Assembly (NCBI RefSeq): GCF_937873765.1
Contig: NZ_CALMZC010000002.1
Coordinates: 31,510 to 95,509 of the forward strand
Direction of reading: 5' to 3'
DNA length: 64,000 nucleotides
Source of the DNA: an uncultured Thiothrix sp.
Lineage (GTDB): Bacteria > Pseudomonadota > Gammaproteobacteria > Thiotrichales > Thiotrichaceae
The notes below the pieces were generated by a model. That model searched no databases and was not told the DNA's origin. It was given only the letters and a program-made list of their open reading frames with translations. This document shows, piece by piece, positions 4,696 through 64,000 of this stretch; within the stretch, counting starts at the first letter, position 1, and the number at the start of each line of letters is the position of its first letter. Made by a program: the position numbers and the translations under genes.

Positions 4696-6094
4696 GCGCT
4701 TTGCCCTCAGTTAAGGCTGACTCGCGCTGTTTTTTTAAATAAATAGCTGCTTGCACTGGATCGAGCGCAATTGCTTCACTAGCCGATAAACCCGCTAGCA
4801 CTTGCACTTGTTGGCTATCCACATCTTTTCCCAAGCGAATTTGGCGCAAAGAGGGTAAGCCTTGCGCATTGAGCACATACACGCCAATGACTTCACTGCG
4901 AACCACCACAGCTTGTTTGGGAATCACTAGACTTTTCGCATCACCCATCACAAAGCCTACTTTTACAAACATCCCGGGATAGAGTTTTTCTTGTCCTGTT
5001 TCTAAATTAATTCGTACTTGGAAAGCATTGGTTTTCGGGTCGGCATAAGGAAAAATTGTCATTGATTTGACGGGGAGATAATCACCGCTATCATCTGCCT
5101 GCACTACCGCTTTACCACGTGCACGTACTTGATTAATCATCCGTTGCGGTACTTCTACCACCACCCGTAACTCATCCAACGAAAGTCCAGTCATGATTGG
5201 AGTGCCCACATTGACCGTTTCACCCAGCTGCACATGGCGCTTGGTCACAATACCGCTATAGGGAGCAATTAAACTGGTATAAGCCAATACCTCAGTCGCT
5301 TGAGTGGCTTGGGCTTTGGCGGCTTCTTGATTGGCTTTGGATGCATCGACAGTCGCCGAAGCAGCCGCTAAAGCAGCATCGGCTGAACCTACACGTGCAG
5401 TGGCAGCCTCTGTCAAGGAACGTGCTGAGGCAATTTGGGCTTTGGCTGATTCTGCTTGTGCTCGAGCCGCCGCCGCTTGAGCTTGGGCCGAATTAACCCG
5501 TGCTTTTGCAGTTGAAAGCGCAGCTTCTGAACGATCATAATCGGCACGTGGAATTAAACGCCGTGCATAAATCTCGCTGATTCTATTGAAATCGGCTTGA
5601 GCCTCTTTCAGCAAAGCTTGAGCCTCTTGTACCCCCGCTTGCGTTTGTTGCAAGTTAGCATTGGCTTGTTGACTAGCTGCTTGTGCACGCTGCTCTTCCG
5701 CTTTAGCTTGGCTTAAACCGGCTTTAGCCTCTGATAAACCTGCTTGAGCTTGACCTAAACTCGCTTTGGCTTGATTAGCCCCCGCAGTCGCCTCGCTAAT
5801 GCCAGCCTTAGCTTGCTGTACACCGGCTTGCTGATTTTTAGAGCGAATTCTTGCAATCACGCTCCCCCGTTCGACACGATCATCTACATCATAGGGCAAC
5901 TCTTCAATGACACCATTGGTTTGTGCCGATACGGTCGATTCATTGACAGCCTCAAGATGTCCGTCTAAATATAGAAGCTCTGGAACAATTTGTTCAGAGA
6001 CTTGCATGGTTTTTAGCGCTAAGTCATCCGATAAAGCATACTTATTAAAAATAAAAAATCCGACGATTAGCATGTATATCTGAGCTAACTTCAT
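4688..6094 (-). CDS. RND periplasmic adaptor (HlyD/AcrA family) with very long coiled hairpin
   Basis: A 468-residue membrane-fusion protein that should bridge the RND pump encoded downstream to an outer-membrane channel. An N-terminal hydrophobic signal/anchor (about 1-22) precedes a lipoyl half-motif (TVSAQTNGVIEELPYDVDDRV). An alpha-hairpin covers about residues 88-268, then the second lipoyl half (LIAPYSGIVTKRHVQLGETV) and beta-barrel and membrane-proximal domains follow. The hairpin apex (RISEIYARRLIPRADYDRS) resembles the TolC-docking tip. The rising arm is built of strict seven-residue Ala/Gln-rich repeats such as QAKASLG and EAKAGLS. AcrA hairpins are roughly a third to half this long. 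Start ATG at 6094; no strong ribosome-binding site is seen. Confidence 0.9.
   Translation of the reverse strand: MKLAQIYMLIVGFFIFNKYALSDDLALKTMQVSEQIVPELLYLDGHLEAVNESTVSAQTNGVIEELPYDVDDRVERGSVIARIRSKNQQAGVQQAKAGISEATAGANQAKASLGQAQAGLSEAKAGLSQAKAEEQRAQAASQQANANLQQTQAGVQEAQALLKEAQADFNRISEIYARRLIPRADYDRSEAALSTAKARVNSAQAQAAAARAQAESAKAQIASARSLTEAATARVGSADAALAAASATVDASKANQEAAKAQATQATEVLAYTSLIAPYSGIVTKRHVQLGETVNVGTPIMTGLSLDELRVVVEVPQRMINQVRARGKAVVQADDSGDYLPVKSMTIFPYADPKTNAFQVRINLETGQEKLYPGMFVKVGFVMGDAKSLVIPKQAVVVRSEVIGVYVLNAQGLPSLRQIRLGKDVDSQQVQVLAGLSASEAIALDPVQAAIYLKKQRESALTEGKAHE
5585..5821 (-). repeat. Heptad repeats coding the adaptor's hairpin arm
   Basis: About eleven consecutive 21-bp units code for seven-residue Ala/Gln/Ser-rich heptads (residues about 92-170 of the adaptor), for example QAQAGLS, EAKAGLS, QAKAEEQ. 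The DNA units are diverged, so the repeat is clearer in protein than in bases. Confidence 0.6.
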
Positions 6095-6204
6095 GTGATA
6101 ATTACCCGCTAGAATAATTTAAACTCATCAAATATAGCATAAGATATTTAGAAAATTCTAATATACTTAAAAATCAAAGGAAGTCACGCAGAGGTATATG
6201 CATT

Positions 6205-6705
6205 ATGAAAACAACAGTAATTAGACTCTGTGCACTATCTGCTCTGTTATCCTGCATGATAGCGAACGTACAGGCGGAGATTTATAAATGGACTGATGCT
6301 TCAGGCGCTGTGCATTACACACAAACTCCACCGCCTGATTTATCTAAAGCCAAAGATATTGCTCAAGATATTAGCTTATCGACTGGTAAAGCAACCCATG
6401 CCACCAAAACTGATGCGATGACTAAGTCTGAGGAGCAAGATAAAGACCCGTCTAAAGATGAAATGGAACGAGCTAAGGATGAAGGCGCTAAAAATGCAGA
6501 GAAGCATCGTCAATTCTGTGAACAGCAAAAATCCTCTCTGAAGCAATTACTATCCAATCCGGTCATTCGCTGGCGCTCCACCGAGAACGAAGAAAAAATT
6601 CTAAGTGCCAAAGAACGTGCTGATAAAATTGCTGAAATTGAGAAGAACGTCAAAGAACTCTGTAATTCTGACGTGCTACCTGAAAAAGTCAGTAAAGCAC
6701 AATAA
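6205..6705 (+). CDS. DUF4124 domain secreted protein
   Basis: A 166-residue protein with an N-terminal signal peptide (cleavage likely after NVQA) followed at once by EIYKWTDASGAVHYTQTPPP, the DUF4124 signature. The family is common in gammaproteobacterial envelopes and of unknown role. The remainder is charged and Lys/Glu-rich, probably helical. A single Cys appears in QFCEQQK and another near the end (ELCNSD). It is transcribed away from the RND operon, with a short AT-rich divergent region (6095-6204). AAGGA lies well upstream of the ATG, so the ribosome-binding site is not ideal. Confidence 0.8.
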   Translation: MKTTVIRLCALSALLSCMIANVQAEIYKWTDASGAVHYTQTPPPDLSKAKDIAQDISLSTGKATHATKTDAMTKSEEQDKDPSKDEMERAKDEGAKNAEKHRQFCEQQKSSLKQLLSNPVIRWRSTENEEKILSAKERADKIAEIEKNVKELCNSDVLPEKVSKAQ

Positions 6706-6718
6706 CTCTTAATTTACT

Positions 6719-6775
6719 CCCTGCAGGCATCAGGGATAATTTACAATTCCATAGGGTAGCCTACTCTAGGCTACC
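6719..6775. terminator. Two hairpins after the DUF4124 gene
   Basis: Two inverted repeats follow the stop codon: CCCTG/CAGGG (6719-6735) and GGTAGCC/GGCTACC (6755-6775, 7-bp stem, 7-base loop). No T-run follows either. They may reduce read-through into the next + strand gene or shape the mRNA end. Confidence 0.35.
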
Positions 6776-6806
6776 TGCTGGGCTGCATAACTCTATAGAA
6801 AAGTAA

Positions 6807-8057
6807 ATGATCCGAATAAATTACTGGTTAGCAATTGCTGTACTTCTGTTCAGCCAATCGCTAACACCTGCTATTGCGATTGAACAAGCTGATGAAAGCG
6901 TAAAAGTCACTTTATCAGGGCAATTAGAAACCTCAATTCATCGTTTTGGTGAAGCTCCACGCCGCATCCTGTGGATCTCTAGTACTGAAACACAAACTGT
7001 AGACTTTAGTTTAGCCAAACAATTGGCAGCGGCTGATTTAGAAATTTGGCTAACGCCTTTACAGGGCACAAGCAAGACTTCTCAAACACCTAAAGAACTG
7101 TCCTCAGCCCAACTGGCTGAATTAATTCAGGAATCCTTACCTAGTAAAACCGAGAATAAACTTTATATTTTCAGCACTGGCGAGCAAGCCAAAGCAGCCG
7201 TAGAAAGTTTAAAAACTTGGCAAGACGCACGCGGTAGCTCTAAGCAGCTAGCGGGGCTGATCCTTGCCTATCCTGAACTAACGCTGGGTAAAACTAAACA
7301 AGCAGATCCACAATTTATTGAAGCTGCCTATCAACTAAAGCTACCGATTTATCTATTCCAGCCCACTAAAAAGCTTAATTTAACAGCGCTTGAAGGTTTA
7401 GTTGCTGCGTTTGAAAAAGCAGGCAGCATAGTCTATGCCGAAGTGGTGAATGATGTTGCAGCCGGATATCTGCAGCGTGAGGCAAGTTCAGAAGAAGAAG
7501 CTTTACAAGCTAGTGTATTTCCAGCTCAATTCACTCAAGCGCTCGATAAACTAGGTGAAGCTGCTAGCCAACTATCTGTGGCTAAAACAGAAACAACCGA
7601 TGAGCAAACGCTACAAGAACATCCAACCAAAGAAATAGCACCTGAACTGCGTTTGACTGACCTCAATGGAAAAATGCAGGATTTAAAGGATTATCGTGGC
7701 AAAATCGTGCTTCTAAACTTCTGGGCTACTTGGTGCCCACCTTGTATCAAAGAAATTCCATCATTGAATAATTTGCAGACGCGATTCTCTCAAAAGGAGT
7801 TCGTCGTGCTGAGTGTCGATGTGGGTGAGGAACCAAAAGATATTCAAGCCTTCTTAGAGCATCTACCTGCGGACTATCCGGTTTTGGTGGATAGTACCAG
7901 TAGCTCCACTGAACCTTGGCAATTGAAAGCTTTCCCTAGCACTTATGTCATTGATCGCAAAGGACAGCTGCGCTATATGTACTTTGGAGGCTTAGAATGG
8001 GATGAGCCAGAAATTATTAAGTTTTTAGAGAAAAATTTAGAGGTGGTGGCAAAATAA
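6807..8057 (+). CDS. TlpA-like thioredoxin with N-terminal degenerate hydrolase-like domain
   Basis: A 416-residue periplasmic protein with a signal peptide (cleavage after about AIA-IE). Residues about 270-416 form a TlpA/ResA thioredoxin domain with the redox motif in NFWATWCPPCIKEIP and the cis-Pro segment KAFPSTYVID; such domains reduce disulfides, for example in cytochrome c maturation. Residues about 30-230 look like an alpha/beta fold with hydrolase-like layout (RRILWISS, KLYIFSTGEQ, GLILAYPE) but no GxSxG nucleophile, so this part is probably non-catalytic or binding. The fusion is not one I recognise. It stands alone between the DUF4124 gene and a convergent ppnP. Confidence 0.8.
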   Translation: MIRINYWLAIAVLLFSQSLTPAIAIEQADESVKVTLSGQLETSIHRFGEAPRRILWISSTETQTVDFSLAKQLAAADLEIWLTPLQGTSKTSQTPKELSSAQLAELIQESLPSKTENKLYIFSTGEQAKAAVESLKTWQDARGSSKQLAGLILAYPELTLGKTKQADPQFIEAAYQLKLPIYLFQPTKKLNLTALEGLVAAFEKAGSIVYAEVVNDVAAGYLQREASSEEEALQASVFPAQFTQALDKLGEAASQLSVAKTETTDEQTLQEHPTKEIAPELRLTDLNGKMQDLKDYRGKIVLLNFWATWCPPCIKEIPSLNNLQTRFSQKEFVVLSVDVGEEPKDIQAFLEHLPADYPVLVDSTSSSTEPWQLKAFPSTYVIDRKGQLRYMYFGGLEWDEPEIIKFLEKNLEVVAK

Positions 8058-57541: not shown

Positions 57542-58399
57542 GTGCTCAGTTACCGCCACGCCTTTCATGCAGGCAATCATGCCGATGTCTTAAAACATGC
57601 TAGTTTAAGCCTAGTGCTTGAAAGCTTTAAGCAAAAAGATAAGCCATTTGTGTATTTAGACACGCATGCAGGCGCGGGGATTTATGATTTGGATAGTGAT
57701 TGGGCGCGCAAAACCCGCGAGTCGAATAGCGGAATTCAGCGCTTATGGCATGAACAAACTAAATGGCCTGAATTAAGCGCTTATTTTCAAATTCTCCAAC
57801 AATTGAATACCGAACAAGCAGGGCAACAATTTTACCCCGGCTCGCCTGAAGTAGCGCGGCAGCTCTTACGCCCCCAAGATCAACTGATTTTGATGGAATT
57901 GCATCCACAAGAAATTGAAGTCTTGCGTGGTAATCTAGCCAAAGACAGCCGTGTGCATATCCATCATCGGGATGGTTTGGAAGGTTTAAGCGCCCTCACA
58001 CCACCAACTCCCCGCCGAGGCTTAGTGCTGATTGACCCTGCCTATGAACGCCAAGAGGAATACCAGCAAGTGGTACAAGCGGTAAAAAAAGCTTACACCC
58101 GCTGGCCTACGGGAACTTATTTGATTTGGTATCCGATGCTCGCTAAAGCGCGGGATCGTAGCTTGCGTTTACTGCATGATTTGCAAGAGAAAAGCAGCTT
58201 TAATAGTTTATTAGTCGCTGAACTGAGCGTGGAGGCTCAACATCCCGATTTAGGCATGCATGGCTCCGGCTTAGCGGTGATTAACCCACCTTGGCAATTA
58301 GATCAACAGCTTAAGAAGCTCTTACCACGCTTGACTAAAACCTTACAACGAGATGCGCAAGCTAAGTGGCGAGTGGAGTGGTTAATTCAAGCGGCTTGA
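57542..58399 (+). CDS. rlmJ: 23S rRNA (adenine-2030-N6)-methyltransferase
   Basis: A 285-residue SAM-dependent methyltransferase of the RlmJ family, which methylates A2030 of 23S rRNA. The N-terminus LSYRHAFHAGNHADVLKH is diagnostic, the SAM motif is VYLDTHAGAGIYDL and the target-base motif is LVLIDPAYERQEEY (DPAY in place of the usual DPPY). GTG start at 57542; this start aligns with the family N-terminus. Confidence 0.95.
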   Translation: MLSYRHAFHAGNHADVLKHASLSLVLESFKQKDKPFVYLDTHAGAGIYDLDSDWARKTRESNSGIQRLWHEQTKWPELSAYFQILQQLNTEQAGQQFYPGSPEVARQLLRPQDQLILMELHPQEIEVLRGNLAKDSRVHIHHRDGLEGLSALTPPTPRRGLVLIDPAYERQEEYQQVVQAVKKAYTRWPTGTYLIWYPMLAKARDRSLRLLHDLQEKSSFNSLLVAELSVEAQHPDLGMHGSGLAVINPPWQLDQQLKKLLPRLTKTLQRDAQAKWRVEWLIQAA

Positions 58400-58425: not shown

Positions 58426-59724
58426 TCACTGACAACCACCCACGCTTGCAAGGCTTGTAGCTTGGCAATTTCGGGTAATTGTAAGACCAGCTTGAAGGGC
58501 TAATTCCACCTTAAAATATTGGAAATACAGCTCACGAATGACTTGATTCGGAATACCAAATATTTGTCCGGTTAAAGTCTCGCCTTGCAAACTGACAAAG
58601 CCCATATAAGCCAGCAAGCTAATGAAATCATCTCGATCTAAACCTTTTTCCAAATCAAACTTGCGCTGTTGCTGGGCTTCGACCTGCCCGTGCTGAATTA
58701 ACTCATCTAAAACTTGATAACTCGCCTCCCGATTGCCGATATGGAATAAGGCCATAATCTTGCCATAATCCGAGGCAATATTTTCATCGAGCATCTGTTT
58801 GGAGTAACGACAACGTTGACGATCAAAATTCTTTAAAAAATACAGCAGCATATCCGCATTGAATAGCGTTTCATTGGCTTGAGAATTAAACCAATAACCG
58901 TCATACCAGTCTGACGCTGTTTGTTGTAGCGACTCAAGCGACAAACCACAGTCATCCGCTAGTGGCTGCAATAAGCTAGCCGCTTCTTGATGGGTAAAAC
59001 CGATAGCCGCATTAAAATCCGCATGTAAAGATACATTCTCAACAACATTAAACCCGCTCGTGAGGCTATCCAACATCACGGGGGTCACGCCGGTAATAAA
59101 TAAGCGATCTAAAGCCCCACGCTGGGTTGCCGCTTTCAAGGTTTCATAGAAGCTGCGTACAAAACCACCCTTGCCGACGATACTTTGAAAATGCGTTAGA
59201 TTATCAGCCAGAATGCTATTGGCGAAATGATCATATTCATCAATCAACAGCAGGAGTTTATTACCACGGACTTGGGTAAAAAACGCCTCCATTTTTTCAT
59301 GCGGTAACTCACATTGCTGCACTTGCTGAATAGCAGTCCGTGGATAAGCGTAATCTTCCAGAAAACGCTCTAAAGCTAACTGAATTTTAGTGGTAAACGC
59401 ACGGTAAATATCTTCAGCACTCGTCGTTGCAATTCCACTGAACTCCATAAACAGCACTTGATAGCTATTCTGCAAAGCCGTCGGCTGCTGTCCAATCGCT
59501 AACTGTCCGAATAAGGCCGGAAACTCTGCCGCATAACGCTGATCGTAGTAATACTCCAGCATGGAAATAAATAAGCTCTTGCCAAACCGTCGGGGCCGCA
59601 GCAACAGCAAATAATTACCCTGCTCTTCAAGCGCTGGGATATACGCGGTCTTATCCACATAGGTATAGCCTTCGCTAATGACTTTGCGGAAATTACTTAA
59701 ACCGTAGGGGATTTTGAGCTTCAT
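58426..59724 (-). CDS. AAA-ATPase-like protein lacking its C-terminal nuclease domain
   Basis: A 432-residue member of the AAA-ATPase_like (PF09820) family found in repeated copies in many anaerobes and filamentous bacteria. It opens with IPYGLSNFRKVISEGYTYVD; Walker A is RPRRFGKSLFIS and Walker B is LLLLIDEYDHFAN. In full-length relatives a PD-(D/E)XK nuclease domain (DUF1703) follows the segment here ending PNQVIRELYFQYF, giving 500-570 residues. Here the protein stops about 20 residues later, in a different-looking tail. A frame shifted by one base stays open for another 40 or so codons across the rlmJ 3' end. Probably a truncated, perhaps decaying gene. Confidence 0.78.
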   Translation of the reverse strand: MKLKIPYGLSNFRKVISEGYTYVDKTAYIPALEEQGNYLLLLRPRRFGKSLFISMLEYYYDQRYAAEFPALFGQLAIGQQPTALQNSYQVLFMEFSGIATTSAEDIYRAFTTKIQLALERFLEDYAYPRTAIQQVQQCELPHEKMEAFFTQVRGNKLLLLIDEYDHFANSILADNLTHFQSIVGKGGFVRSFYETLKAATQRGALDRLFITGVTPVMLDSLTSGFNVVENVSLHADFNAAIGFTHQEAASLLQPLADDCGLSLESLQQTASDWYDGYWFNSQANETLFNADMLLYFLKNFDRQRCRYSKQMLDENIASDYGKIMALFHIGNREASYQVLDELIQHGQVEAQQQRKFDLEKGLDRDDFISLLAYMGFVSLQGETLTGQIFGIPNQVIRELYFQYFKVELALQAGLTITRNCQATSLASVGGCQ

Positions 59725-59916: not shown

Positions 59917-60168
59917 ATGCACTGTTTATCCATACCTTATGCTGATGATTTATTGGTTAGGTCGGGCAAAGCACCCCGCGAGTTAGAAGAAGAATTACGC
60001 TTTTTACTGGCACTTAAGTTGTTTGAGTTGCATCGTCTGTCACTGGGTAAGGCGGCTGAATTCTGTGGGATGGCAAAGCTGAAGTTCATGTTTGAATTAG
60101 GGCGTTTGGGTGTTCCCGTAGTCAATTTGCAGGATGACCAAATCACTGATGAGTTGCAGGATGATTAG
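59917..60168 (+). CDS. UPF0175 antitoxin
   Basis: An 83-residue protein of the UPF0175 family: SIPYADDLLVRSGKAPRELE, FLLALKLFELHRLSLGKAA, then FCGMAKLKFMFELGRLGVPV. The middle looks like a helix-turn-helix (LSLGKAAEFCGMAKLKFMF), so it may bind its own promoter. UPF0175 proteins are paired with DUF3368 PIN-like toxins, as here. Its end overlaps the toxin start by eight bases. Confidence 0.85.
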   Translation: MHCLSIPYADDLLVRSGKAPRELEEELRFLLALKLFELHRLSLGKAAEFCGMAKLKFMFELGRLGVPVVNLQDDQITDELQDD

Positions 60169-60649
60169 GCCAGCCATCGTTGCGGACAGTGGCCCCTTGA
60201 TTTCACTCGCTATTATTGAGCAACTGGATTTATTAAGGCAATTGTATCAACGGGTTTTAGTTCCACCTGCGGTATGGCATGAGGTGACAGTTAAAGGTTT
60301 GGGGATGCCGGGCGCACAGGCTGTTGCGCAATTATCTTGGCTGGAAATACGCAAGCCAGAACCACAAGTACTCCAGCCGCTATCCATCTTGGTTGATCCG
60401 GGTGAGGCAGAGGCGATTGCATTGGCACAAACTATAACCGACAGTATTGTACTATTAGATGATTCGCAGGCTCGACGGGTAGCAGAACGCTTTCATATTC
60501 CGCGTATTGGGACGTTGGGCATTTTGCGTAAGGCAAAAAAACACGGGTTAATTATTGCAATAAGACCTTATATTGAGTATCTAAGGGCAAATAATATTTA
60601 TATGGCTAATAATTTAGTGGAAGCTGTGTTGCAGGATGTTGGGGAGTAA
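60161..60649 (+). CDS. DUF3368 PIN-like toxin
   Basis: A 162-residue protein of the DUF3368 family, whose fold is PIN-like (VapC-type RNase). The PIN acidic residues are visible as IVADSGPLISLA near the N-terminus, VDPGEAEAIALA in the middle and VLLDDSQARRVAE. ATG at 60161 (MIRPAIVADS) is chosen as the family begins here; it overlaps the antitoxin end and two in-frame ATGs upstream are less likely. Likely an RNA-cutting toxin silenced by the UPF0175 partner. Confidence 0.85.
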   Translation: MIRPAIVADSGPLISLAIIEQLDLLRQLYQRVLVPPAVWHEVTVKGLGMPGAQAVAQLSWLEIRKPEPQVLQPLSILVDPGEAEAIALAQTITDSIVLLDDSQARRVAERFHIPRIGTLGILRKAKKHGLIIAIRPYIEYLRANNIYMANNLVEAVLQDVGE

Positions 60650-60707: not shown

Positions 60708-60968
60708 ACTAACTCACGCTTGGTGGACTCTTCACAATAACCTTCTAAAGTTACTGTTCCAACGATAACTCTATATGTCTTGTATATGTCTTGGAACATA
60801 GGTTTGGCTTTTCTTTGTTAATTCTCCACACCCATAGCTACCGCTAATTACAGGTGTACTTAAGTCGTAGTCCCGCCTTTAACCAGCAGGCTCTCCAACG
60901 CAGATGCCAGTGAGTGGAGCATGTGTAGACTCGTCGTAGTCCCGCCTTTAACCAGCAGGCTCTCCAAC

Positions 60969-61001
60969 AGCGACATCTCTCCAACATCACCAAAAAGTAT
61001 G
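60969..61001 (-). repeat. CRISPR spacer 2 (identical to spacer 6)
   Basis: A 33-nt spacer, the same in every base as spacer 6 at 61245-61277. It also holds CTCTCCAAC (GTTGGAGAG on the minus strand), which equals the first nine bases of the repeat as transcribed. Confidence 0.95.
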
Positions 61002-61244
61002 GTCGTAGTCCCGCCTTTAACCAGCAGGCTCTCCAACCGGCGCAATCGCCTGCGCTCTTAATAAAGGGAAGTCGTAGTCCCGCCTTTAACCAGCAGGCTC
61101 TCCAACGGCGATGGTTTGAAACACAGCGCGAATTAGTTGTCGTAGTCCCGCCTTTAACCAGCAGGCTCTCCAACAATCCAATTTTGCAGCCACATACCCA
61201 CGTATAAAGTCGTAGTCCCGCCTTTAACCAGCAGGCTCTCCAAC

Positions 61245-61277
61245 AGCGACATCTCTCCAACATCACCAAAAAGTATG
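61245..61277 (-). repeat. CRISPR spacer 6 (identical to spacer 2)
   Basis: Duplicate of spacer 2, four repeat units away; the flanking spacers are not duplicated. Confidence 0.95.
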
Positions 61278-61313
61278 GTCGTAGTCCCGCCTTTAACCAG
61301 CAGGCTCTCCAAC

Positions 61314-61390
61314 GTTTACCACCTTCCGCCCATTGCTCAATATCCACCCGCCTCCACTTTGGTTGTTTACCAACATCACCAAAAAGTATG
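61314..61390 (-). repeat. CRISPR spacer 7, 77 nt, composite
   Basis: More than twice the length of its neighbours. Its final 21 bases (61370-61390) are identical to the final 21 of spacers 2 and 6, and the identity breaks next to a CCAAC shared with the repeat end. No repeat remnant is seen inside it. Confidence 0.9.
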
Positions 61391-61569
61391 GTCGTAGTCC
61401 CGCCTTTAACCAGCAGGCTCTCCAACCTAGTCCCCTAATCCTCTCTAGGGCATTTAATTAGGGTCGTAGTCCCGCCTTTAACCAGCAGGCTCTCCAACGG
61501 TGGGCGATAAGTATTAATATTCACTAAAAAGAAGTCGTAGTCCCGCCTTTAACCAGCAGGCTCTCCAAC

Positions 61570-61708
61570 GGCTCGTATCTGAAAGACTTTTATAATCATA
61601 TAATTACAAAGACCCTTAGCAGAGAATACGGGTGAGAAAAAGTTACCATGGTTAAAATTCAACCAAAGCCCTTTCAATTGCCTAATACTTATACGAAACA
61701 CTACCCGC
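61570..61708 (-). other. Possible CRISPR leader between csx28-like gene and array
   Basis: A 139-bp AT-rich stretch upstream of the array in the inferred direction of transcription. It has ATTATATGATTATAAAAG on the minus strand near the first repeat, which might hold a promoter -10 region. No open frame of note. Confidence 0.35.
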
Positions 61709-62287
61709 CTACACCTCCAAAGCTCGATACCGTTGTTCAATTTCCATACGTAATTGTCGATTTAAGTCTGCATATAAAGCCTTCAATTTCTCCACTTGCT
61801 CAGGTTTATTAATCAGCGTTAAACCCTCGGCTGAGGCCTGAGCGGTCTTAGGATGCGAGAAATAAAACCCAGCAACAACCGCCCGATAAGCATACAACAA
61901 ATCCCGTACCTGCTCAGAAATGAATAAACCAGCATGTTGTTGATAAAACACCGTACTCAGTTCCTGCAACAAAAAGCGCTCTAAATTAGCATAATGATAA
62001 AAATACTGTGTCACCCCACCGGCCTTATTATCCTTAGTCCAGTGCAGGATCGCCTTATCGCTTTTCTTATCACTCATATACGCCAACAAGGTCCAAACTG
62101 CCTCTAACGCTGCAATCTCACGGCGCAAACGGTCGGTACGAATCACCGTGTTATGCACTTGGCGGCTTTGCTTAGTGGCAAAAACATAAGCCAACACGGC
62201 TGCCACCACCACCCCACAGAACCCCAATGCGCCTACGGTTAAATCTGCTAACTCACCAGCTTCCAACTGAATACCCCATAAGTCCAT
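61709..62287 (-). CDS. csx28: Csx28-like accessory membrane protein of type VI-B CRISPR
   Basis: A 192-residue protein with one TM helix (about 15-37, LTVGALGFCGVVVAAVLAYV) and a helical cytoplasmic part (RTDRLRREIAALEAVWTLL, HYANLERFLLQELSTVF, RDLLYAYRAVVAGFYFSH). Size, single N-terminal TM helix, all-helical body and its place directly downstream of cas13b (12 bp after its stop, AGGAGA before the ATG) match Csx28 of subtype VI-B2, which forms a Cas13b-activated membrane pore that boosts defence. Csx27 of VI-B1 has several TM helices and fits less well. I see no canonical RxxxxH; known Csx28 has a diverged HEPN. The assignment rests on architecture and context. Confidence 0.7.
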   Translation of the reverse strand: MDLWGIQLEAGELADLTVGALGFCGVVVAAVLAYVFATKQSRQVHNTVIRTDRLRREIAALEAVWTLLAYMSDKKSDKAILHWTKDNKAGGVTQYFYHYANLERFLLQELSTVFYQQHAGLFISEQVRDLLYAYRAVVAGFYFSHPKTAQASAEGLTLINKPEQVEKLKALYADLNRQLRMEIEQRYRALEV

Positions 62288-62299
62288 GACTGCTCTCCT

Positions 62300-64000
62300 T
62301 TACTGTAAATAACGCAACCAAGCTCGGCTTAAACCTTCCAATTGTGCATACAAACGCTCCGCTACTTTACGATGATTCGCCGGATTCACCGGCACAGGCT
62401 CGGCACGCACTGCCTGCACAAGCTGCGGAAACTCCGTGGCTAGCGGATACTGATTATGCGCAAACGCATTGCGAATCAAACGAAACTGATTGAAAGCAGC
62501 TAATTCAAACCCTGCTAAATGCGCCGCCTGCTGTTGTTGATGCTGATATAAAGCCTGTAAAAAATCCCCATACCGACCACCCCCAAACTCAGGGTTTTGC
62601 TTAAACTCAGCAGCGTCACGTTTAGGAATAGCCCCTAGCTTCTGGCTAATTCGAGTTTCTACCTCATGTACGCGCCGCATCAACTGCACCCGCACGCGTT
62701 GATAACTCATTAACTCAGCACGAATCTCCTCATGGTGTAGCTCTAACTCTGGATAATAGCCACCATTCTCCACCAATAATCCCTGTAAACGCCGATCACG
62801 CACCAATACCCGCAAACCGCCCCAATCACGCAGCTTACAAGCCGGATGAACTAAAGCACGTGCTAGATAGCGGATAGAAGTGGCAGGTTTTTTGGGTAAA
62901 GGAATATCTAAGAATTGGCGCAGTGGTGTATTTAACAAGGTATGCTCCAAACCCTGTAAACCCCAATTAGGACGCGCACTCGCATCGGCTAAGGTTAAAC
63001 GCTCCAAATACTGCTGTGCATACAAATACAACAGGCGATCCTGTGCCATCGCATGCCGAATTTGTAGCTCATCTTGTTGATAAGCTTTCAGTAAGGCACT
63101 GAGTTTTTCGCGTTTAGCTAAGGTAGTTTCACTCTGTGGCGGTTTGCCAAACGCAGGCTTAGTGTCCAGCAGCCATGTACGTAAATCCGTGATGAGCTGC
63201 TGGCGCTCAGCTTCAGAACGATAATGCTTTTGCTTTTCTGCAAATTGCTGAGTACGCCGATCCAACCAAGTATCCAGCAAACCATGCCGCCGTGGGTAAC
63301 TATACATCGCCTGCACCTGTTGCCCTTGCCCCGCCAAATAGCGTTTGAGCAACCAAGTGATCGAGGGTGGAATACTGACACTACCCTTGGTTTTCGTATA
63401 CTGCACAGAGCCTTCGCGCTCTAAATCCGCTGCCTCTAACTGCAAAGCCTTAGCCACTAAATTCAAGATCGGGCGATACAAAAAATGATCCGGCACGGGT
63501 AAGGGTTGCTTGAGTCGCTGCCCATCCCATAATTCAGCACACCAATTATCGAAACTGGCGGCTTGCCGCAAACCCAACCAAGCAGGCAATTGATTCAGCG
63601 ACCACTGCTTGGGCTTGGCTAAATAATCTTGAATAAAGCGTCGTCTTGCCTGCAAATAAGCCTCATAAAAACTAATCAAGCCTTGGTATTTATCAGCTCG
63701 CGTCGCCAGCCCTAAACGCCCTAAAAAGGGATGGGCTAGCGCCCCCGACAAGAAGCCACAATCCGCTAATAAATCTGCAATTTTCGGTGGCTCTTCGACA
63801 TGTGCTCCATAATAAGCCAAGGTCTTCTGCAAAATTTGATAGTGCTGGCTATTGAGTTTGCCACCATCAGGCTTGCTGGCATCACTTGGCTGAAAGCGCA
63901 AAAAATCTTCCGCTAAAAAATCACCAATCGGCCCACATTTCAAAATTTGGTCATGCACCAGAGGAGTTGAAGAGCCACTAAAGCGGTAGTAACTTAAGCG
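62300..64000 (-). CDS. cas13b: Cas13b RNA-guided RNase, C-terminal part (runs off right edge)
   Basis: About 566 residues are visible; the frame is open to base 64000, so the start and N-terminal HEPN domain lie outside. A GTG at 63958 is internal, since the frame continues upstream (RLSYYRFSGSSTPLV) without a stop. Near the C-terminus QFRLIRNAFAHNQYP carries the HEPN RNase motif R-x4-H (Arg codon 62471-62473, His codon 62456-62458) with the following N-x-YP typical of Cas13b's second HEPN. The chain is Arg/Lys/Gln-rich with helical stretches (SYQRVRVQLMRRVHEVETRI), as in Cas13b. Known Cas13b are about 1050-1200 residues, Cas13b-t about 780. The csx28-like gene and the Cas13b-type repeats next door support subtype VI-B2. 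Confidence 0.88.
   Translation of the reverse strand, partial: RLSYYRFSGSSTPLVHDQILKCGPIGDFLAEDFLRFQPSDASKPDGGKLNSQHYQILQKTLAYYGAHVEEPPKIADLLADCGFLSGALAHPFLGRLGLATRADKYQGLISFYEAYLQARRRFIQDYLAKPKQWSLNQLPAWLGLRQAASFDNWCAELWDGQRLKQPLPVPDHFLYRPILNLVAKALQLEAADLEREGSVQYTKTKGSVSIPPSITWLLKRYLAGQGQQVQAMYSYPRRHGLLDTWLDRRTQQFAEKQKHYRSEAERQQLITDLRTWLLDTKPAFGKPPQSETTLAKREKLSALLKAYQQDELQIRHAMAQDRLLYLYAQQYLERLTLADASARPNWGLQGLEHTLLNTPLRQFLDIPLPKKPATSIRYLARALVHPACKLRDWGGLRVLVRDRRLQGLLVENGGYYPELELHHEEIRAELMSYQRVRVQLMRRVHEVETRISQKLGAIPKRDAAEFKQNPEFGGGRYGDFLQALYQHQQQQAAHLAGFELAAFNQFRLIRNAFAHNQYPLATEFPQLVQAVRAEPVPVNPANHRKVAERLYAQLEGLSRAWLRYLQ

Follow-up and report, generated by a model that had tools for sequence, protein, structure and literature searches.

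Near the right end of the window, by which we mean the whole 64,000-nucleotide stretch of DNA that was analysed, the minus strand carries, in order, the C-terminal half of a cas13b gene, csx28, and a CRISPR array of ten repeats. The preliminary description of this DNA had reported the same layout, as a protein with a HEPN motif, a small open reading frame (ORF) 12 bp further on, and a ten-repeat array, all on one strand, and the coordinates confirm it. The relevant features are listed below; the last two fall outside the window, on another contig of this genome (C28).

57542–58399, plus strand: rlmJ, conserved flank of the island (PF04378, 266 bits; synteny)
58426–59724, minus strand: AAA-ATPase_like gene, island passenger (PF09820, 181.1 bits; absent between the HAD gene and rlmJ in the congener G005)
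59917–60649, plus strand: UPF0175 and DUF3368 genes, island passengers (PF03683, 66.8 bits; PF11848, 40.3 bits)
60864–61569, minus strand: CRISPR array of 10 identical 36-nt repeats and 9 spacers (exact repeat copies)
61570–61708, minus strand: presumed leader, the 139 nt that separate the first repeat from csx28 (position only)
61709–62287, minus strand: csx28, open frame of 192 aa (NCBIfam NF040556, 91.6 bits; PADLOC Csx28, 5.1e-30; PDB 8gi1, E 4.2e-16)
62300–63948, minus strand: C-terminal half of cas13b, stop codon included (NCBIfam NF038190, 222.4 bits, profile 566–1060)
62456–62473, minus strand: C-terminal HEPN motif RNAFAH (all 20 relatives in alignment A2 share its R, N, A, and H)
63949–64000, plus strand: contig-terminal end of a high-copy element that is likely an insertion sequence (23-bp terminal motif)
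C28:60423–62071, plus strand: N-terminal half of cas13b (NF038190, 276.5 bits, profile 6–492)
C28:60762, plus strand: N-terminal HEPN motif RNAFVH (R-x4-H), residue 114 of the N-terminal half

Cas13b, Csx28, and the CRISPR Array

Both halves of cas13b exceed the 150-bit cut-off of the curated Cas13b profile NF038190, and the open frame at 62300–64000 (minus strand) matches the PADLOC Cas13b profile (4.6e-50). The preliminary description had allowed for a failure to match Cas13 profiles, which did not occur, and had proposed a search for a second R-x4-H motif near the N terminus; this motif is RNAFVH on contig C28. An R-x4-H motif is present near each end of Cas13b, with the two motifs on two contigs, and the Cas13b fold is also recovered. 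The csx28 ORF begins 12 bp past the stop of the open frame and scores above the NF040556 (Csx28) cut-off of 50 bits. PbuCas13b (PDB 6dtd) and Csx28 (PDB 8gi1) of the Prevotella buccae VI-B2 system are among the closest matches in sequence and fold that have solved structures. That system, too, pairs Csx28 with a large Cas13b that has a HEPN motif towards either end. In the fold alignment of the full-length relative P0002, sequence identity to PbuCas13b is ~20%; PbuCas13b belongs to a separate branch, and in the present genome the gene is split.

The combination of Cas13b, Csx28 (not Csx27), and both R-x4-H motifs, together with the structural proximity to PbuCas13b, supports an assignment of the locus to type VI-B2, in agreement with the preliminary description. 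The system itself is known; this member of it is degenerate and comes from a branch that has been little described. Neither PADLOC nor NCBIfam lists a Csx27 match for the small gene adjoining cas13b. According to PMC8209922, VI-B2 loci carry Csx28, and csx27 is inconsistently present in VI-B1 loci, so that its absence alone does not exclude VI-B1.

The ten repeats start at 60864, 60933, 61002, 61071, 61139, 61209, 61278, 61391, 61463, and 61534, and no extra copy occurs in the window at up to 10 mismatches. Spacers are 32–36 nt long, except for spacer 7 (77 nt); spacers 2 and 6 are identical, leaving 8 distinct spacers among the nine. On the strand of cas13b (minus), the 36-nt repeat folds into a hairpin of −10.9 kcal/mol (z −2.0; 6 of 200 shuffles equally good); the plus-strand fold is −3.9 kcal/mol. 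The VI-B2 locus of Porphyromonas gingivalis likewise comprises Cas13b, Csx28, and an array with a leader upstream of the first repeat (PMC13187072), but the leader–repeat hairpin given there is not supported here. The 5′ arm of the first repeat pairs with the leader in 0.53–0.69 of the ensemble (four leader lengths), which is not clearly above shuffled leaders, 59 to 160 of 300 of which reach the same pairing.

Exact searches of viral_contigs with 21–24 nt cores of 7 of the 8 distinct spacers (spacer 8 left out) gave 0 matches, and an exact copy of the repeat was not found in that collection. In the phage collection, the 8 distinct spacers gave only two partial matches, both at chance level (spacer 7, 25 nt at 92%, E 0.6; spacer 3, 19 nt, E 0.3). 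Within 159,444 bases of sequence, no spacer recurs beyond the array at up to 6 substitutions. Spacer 7, the sole spacer compared with the whole genome, finds its own copy, the beginnings of spacers 2 and 6, and 15 nt elsewhere that are taken as chance. No convincing target emerged for any spacer.

The Break in cas13b and the High-Copy Element

Extension of the sequence past 64000, as suggested in the preliminary description, is limited by the end of contig C2, which coincides with the right end of the window; the N-terminal half of cas13b was recovered instead on C28. The last 52 bases of the window (from 63949) belong to the element end, not to cas13b. The 23-bp terminal motif was found in 60 copies, all 60 at contig ends; duplications of 8–9 bp are common to 18 non-overlapping pairs of ends, and 24 of the 60 ends have no duplication partner. 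Among 57 genomes searched, the exact motif occurs in this genome only, and one 54-bp element end has no match in the plasmid collection. The element is likely transposable, and the term insertion sequence is drawn from its ends and duplications because the element body, with any transposase, was not seen.

Both cas13b halves stop exactly at the terminal motif, with one end of each type, and the assembly holds no uninterrupted effector such as a working VI-B2 system has. As judged from the nearest relative, P0001, 68 residues (~203 bp) are absent between the halves; a search of the assembly did not recover this piece, which may possibly be a short contig that was dropped between two element copies. 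Because this stretch is missing and the two flanks of the break have no duplication in common, the gene was probably broken either by two element copies inserted ~200 bp apart or by one insertion followed by deletion. A 7-bp near-match at the flanks was once read as the duplication of a single clean insertion; this reading was rejected, being excluded by the survey of the 60 ends (duplications of 8–9 bp, none of which is present here) and by the 68 residues that P0001 has between the ends.

We therefore favour, with a probability of about 0.83, a VI-B2 locus that lies in an island absent from a congener and whose cas13b, as assembled, is divided by the ends of a likely transposable element of high copy number, with apparent loss of ~200 bp. 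Because of this split and loss, we predict that the strain has no active RNA-guided defence from this locus, and the RNA-targeting locus of the preliminary description stands as to its VI-B2 identity but not as a working system. Before the break, to judge from the VI-B2 family, the array would have been transcribed from the minus strand and the transcript processed by Cas13b to spacer–repeat crRNAs; a matching phage transcript would then have activated the paired HEPN site, and Csx28, as an inner-membrane pore, would have strengthened the arrest. The identical repeats and the open csx28 frame suggest that the break is recent. The same identical repeats and open frame would also suit a strain in which VI-B2 is intact and the break is either a minority allele or an artefact of element copies that confuse the assembler, and the position of every terminal-motif copy at a contig end indicates that assembly breaks down at the element. 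Such an intact system is nevertheless unlikely, since a random break would not leave both halves ending exactly at the terminal motif, one end per type, and the missing piece is not in the assembly.

The Island and Its Host

In the congener G005, only 18 bp separate the HAD gene from rlmJ, at the site that the VI-B island occupies here. Synteny with G005 indicates that contigs C28 and C2 adjoin at cas13b, and cas13b and csx28 are flanked on both sides by genes syntenic with that genome. Of the passengers, the UPF0175 and DUF3368 genes are presumably an antitoxin–toxin pair. No cas1 was found beside the VI-B locus, whereas cas1 is present in the I-C and I-E systems of this genome, so that new spacers would need to be supplied in trans, possibly by these systems. 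PMC8092290 reports that the VI-B locus of Flavobacterium columnare also has no adaptation genes, that the genome has a complete second CRISPR system, and that spacers reach VI-B in trans. In that species a II-C system is the partner; the candidates here are I-C and I-E, whose use in trans is suggested by this analogy.

VI-B systems are known mainly from Bacteroidota, and the named matches, among those listed (120 of 273), are Prevotella, Porphyromonas, and Hoylesella. This genome alone of the 369 that were sampled in its class is over the Cas13b cut-off. These observations could point to a VI-B locus from another genome, such as a Bacteroidota contaminant, joined to C2, but this is hardly credible given the synteny with G005 on both sides of cas13b and csx28, which extends across the break and argues against the foreign right contig end feared in the preliminary description. 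In addition, composition roughly fits, contamination of the genome is given as 0, a Thiothrix sp. MAG supplies the nearest protein, and the Cas13 tree that had been proposed as a check sets the protein apart from 8 Prevotella–Porphyromonas-type sequences (100/100). According to PMC12669027, type VI systems are common in Fusobacteriota and Bacteroidota.

The nearest protein, P0001 (E6Q85_09360, 1071 aa), reaches 98% identity in its best local alignment, which covers half of the query, and contains the 68 residues absent from this cas13b; because of its origin in a Thiothrix sp. MAG, the host is likely a Thiothrix-like gammaproteobacterium, as had been supposed. The annotated N terminus of P0001 differs before the HPTDGE stretch and, as written, is without the N-terminal R-x4-H, so that P0001 may itself come from a damaged or misassembled gene. 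Cas13b was found in 0 of 8 congeners searched (5 of these at least 90% complete), which, with the empty site in G005, weakens the earlier suggestion that any transfer may be old. Codon use, described earlier as like that of the neighbours, is only roughly alike: GC3 is 0.457 (C-terminal half), 0.474 (csx28), and 0.422 (N-terminal half) against a window mean of 0.397 (SD 0.040) for 36 stop-to-stop frames of at least 250 codons, not all of which need be genes.

A Separate Branch and Its Relatives

The protein falls in a well-separated branch whose members come from metagenomes and from MAGs of Thiothrix, Chromatiaceae, and Desulfobulbaceae. In a sample of the phylum the branch is rare, this genome being the only one of 398 over the cut-off. 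A set of 29 related proteins, and the nearest protein, came from searches that scored the 7995 and 7993 candidates with the most words in common; 27 of the 29 are at least 1,071 aa long, and a few are placed in MAGs of these three groups. VIA-align rows below the Cas13 chains were not taken as relatives. Scanning of genome_contigs with the C-terminal half alone gave 27 stretches and no relative; scanning with 20 relatives and two peptide patterns gave at least three loci. On plasmids, the relative P0002 has no match in the plasmid collection.

It is conceivable, although we regard it as doubtful, that lateral transfer spreads this VI-B2 branch through Pseudomonadota and Desulfobulbaceae of the sulfur cycle, that it relies on the type I systems of its hosts to acquire spacers, and that breakage of cas13b has silenced it repeatedly. 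If so, a transposable element here breaks the effector and spares csx28 and the array, as if the effector, not the memory, were costly. The branch would add pairs of Cas13b and Csx28 that face other phages than those known so far, its occurrence beside I-C and I-E in one host would allow trans adaptation to be examined, and the broken cas13b would be a natural case of how and why RNA-targeting immunity is lost.

In the Chromatiaceae MAG locus L074, an eroded cas13b is followed by a Csx28-like ORF (36.8 bits, under the cut-off of 50). Together with the undamaged csx28 frame and ten repeats of the present genome, this might indicate that csx28 and a silent array are kept for a role of their own, either as what remains of a membrane toxin or as a store of spacers for another effector. 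We consider such a role very unlikely, since a recent break would leave these parts intact with no need for selection, the genome yielded no second Cas13b, and the 15.9 kb of L074 contain no repeat array. No array was found in a further locus, L073, either; L073 carries an in-frame stop, and an earlier reading of it as frameshifted was rejected.

Type VI-B2 locus and CRISPR array

The locus at the right end of the window is a real, well-identified type VI-B2 system, probably of a gammaproteobacterial host, and its effector gene is broken in the assembly of the uncultured Thiothrix sp. genome (G000). The minus strand carries, in order, a large frame, a 192-aa ORF, a 139-nt gap and a repeat array, which is the one-strand layout (HEPN protein, small protein 12 bp on, ten-repeat array) of the preliminary description:

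62300-64000, minus strand: open frame entering from the contig end (window ORF reading)
61709-62287, minus strand: 192-aa ORF, start 12 bp past the stop of the large frame (window ORF reading)
139-nt gap between the 192-aa ORF and the repeats
60864-61569, minus strand: array, ten copies of a 36-nt repeat (repeat search of the window)

The large frame is Cas13b (PADLOC, 4.6e-50) and matches NCBIfam NF038190 with 222.4 bits (cut-off 150) over profile positions 566-1060 of 1066. The 192-aa ORF is Csx28 (91.6 bits, cut-off 50) and also matches PDB 8gi1 (E 4.2e-16). These profile matches bear out the proposed assignment to subtype VI-B2; PMC8209922 describes Csx28 as universal in VI-B2 and Csx27 as inconsistent in VI-B1. 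The host is likely Thiothrix-like, judging from the nearest relative, P0001 (the 1071-aa Cas13b E6Q85_09360 of a Thiothrix sp. MAG), and from the placement of Thiothrix in Gammaproteobacteria.

All ten repeats are identical. The spacers are 32-36 nt long, except for spacer 7 (77 nt), and spacers 2 and 6 have the same sequence. Read on the minus strand, the repeat folds into a hairpin with -10.9 kcal/mol (z -2.0), a value reached by 6 of 200 shuffled sequences, whereas the plus-strand reading folds with only -3.9, a difference that fits transcription of the array from the cas13b side. Spacer 7 (61314-61390) is more than twice as long as the others and shares its first 21 nt with those of spacers 2 and 6 (60969-61001 and 61245-61277); on the minus strand, two of its three frames are open (25 codons).

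The N-terminal half and the break in cas13b

The right end of the window is the end of contig C2. A search of G000 with NF038190 (E up to 10) gave two hits: the C-terminal half in the window and C28:60441-62015 (+) on a further contig (276.5 bits, profile 6-492). Both halves match the Cas13b profile above its cut-off. The HEPN motif RNAFVH is at residue 114 of the C28 frame and RNAFAH is at window 62456-62473; G000 therefore carries both HEPN motifs, and the second R-x4-H anticipated near the N-terminus is found on C28 rather than in the window.

In the congener genome G005, rlmJ lies 18 bp beyond a CYTH gene and a HAD gene and is encoded on the opposite strand. In G000, CYTH and HAD lie directly ahead of the cas13b N-terminal half on C28, and rlmJ (57542-58399) lies in the window on the far side of the array, from which it is separated by an AAA-ATPase gene and a UPF0175-DUF3368 pair. 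Joining the C28 end to the C2 end is the simplest order preserving the G005 synteny, and it also shows the VI-B genes to occupy an island without counterpart in G005. Cas13b was not found in any of the eight other genomes of the genus; completeness is 90% or more for five of these.

Both contig ends close with the same 23-bp motif, GGTCATGCACCAGRRGAGTTGAA, which occurs 60 times in G000 (a 25-mer at up to 3 mismatches finds the same 60 places), each time no more than about 55 bases from where a contig stops; window 63949-64000 is one such copy. The 60 ends fall into two types, with 33 and 27 members. Comparing flanks between the types gives 18 non-overlapping pairs that share a duplication of 8-9 bp; 200 shuffles gave 0.085 such pairs on average and never more than 1. 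Motif and duplications mark a transposable element present in many copies and too repetitive to be assembled, the transposase of which was not seen. The exact motif is absent from all 56 other genomes searched, and its confinement to G000 among these fits a recent expansion. No duplication partner exists for 24 of the 60 ends; rearrangements, or short contigs left out of the assembly, may account for this.

The two ends that break cas13b, on C28 and C2, represent one type each and are both among these 24. P0001 (98% identical) offers a reason for the missing duplication: in it, 68 residues separate the two break points. By codon position the missing piece is 203 bp, assuming a gene length as in P0001, and the 68 residues were not found elsewhere in the G000 assembly (best match E 0.11). 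Two element copies may have inserted, with the short intervening piece lost from the assembly, or the 68-residue piece may have been deleted; in either case, the assembly holds no full cas13b frame.

Relatives and distribution

Protein searches, each scoring about 8,000 candidates only, retrieved 25 proteins with the joined halves as query (23 of at least 793 aa) and 29 with a profile of 20 of these (27 of at least 1,071 aa); few of the proteins carry a name. A scan of GTDB species with the 20-row alignment gave three relatives in 60 stretches, from two Desulfobulbaceae MAGs and one Chromatiaceae MAG. The L072 copy is an open frame truncated by the contig end. The Desulfobulbaceae copy L073 (4491-8099) is interrupted by an in-frame stop following codon 690, leaving ORFs of 690 and 506 aa; the stop may be a genuine nonsense mutation or a sequence error, the contig's name giving a coverage of about 7. 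In the Chromatiaceae locus L074, the C-terminal part of cas13b is eroded and is followed by a Csx28-like ORF (5875-6897; Csx28 36.8 bits and SLATT domain 28.7 bits, each below cut-off). Neither L073 nor L074 yielded a repeat array. The annotated N terminus of P0001 diverges just ahead of the N-terminal HEPN motif, so this closest copy may itself carry damage or an assembly error. In P0026 (1546 aa), a Cas13b of metagenomic origin from this branch, about 370 extra N-terminal residues precede the Cas13b match, which spans 378-1529.

A maximum-likelihood tree of 41 rows places the protein in a branch (33 rows) apart from eight Prevotella-Porphyromonas-type rows (five so named by a source, three unnamed), with a split of 100/100; within it, the G000 Cas13b groups with P0001 and the relatives P0002 and P0003 at 100/100. 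The tree has no outgroup and gives no direction of transfer; unlike letter make-up is flagged in 19 rows, several branches are long, and the L074 row has only 44% of columns filled.

Cas13b exceeds the cut-off in 1 of 95 relatives, 1 of 369 genomes of the class and 1 of 398 of the phylum, in overlapping samples and each time in G000; one other genome each in the 95-relative and 398-phylum samples has a weak match below it (18.1 and 16.8 bits). Csx28 likewise passes in 1 of the 95 relatives. The literature search returned nothing joining Cas13b with Thiothrix, nor Cas13b with Gammaproteobacteria and VI-B, and no priority claim is drawn from it. PMC11124354 describes six VI-B1 systems of cold-adapted bacteria, in a passage that names no hosts, and Hu et al. 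2022 (PMC9554183) use neither the word Proteobacteria nor Thiothrix in their main text. Within the literature searched, this Cas13b branch is little described.

Proposed working and spacer acquisition

The genes, motifs, order, island and break are seen in the assembly; by family resemblance, Cas13b would process crRNA and cleave RNA when triggered by a target, and a Csx28 pore would depolarise the membrane once Cas13b is activated, as PMC12669027 describes for Csx28. In F. columnare, a VI-B array is documented to adapt in trans with II-C (PMC8092290), and by analogy trans adaptation of the G000 array may be hypothesised. In G000, cas1 lies on other contigs only. A I-C system at the start of C44 (L083, C44:1-12000) comprises cas1, cas4, cas7, cas8 and cas3, and an I-E operon on C56 (L084, C56:20001-36000) is accompanied by 92 repeat copies within the stretch read.
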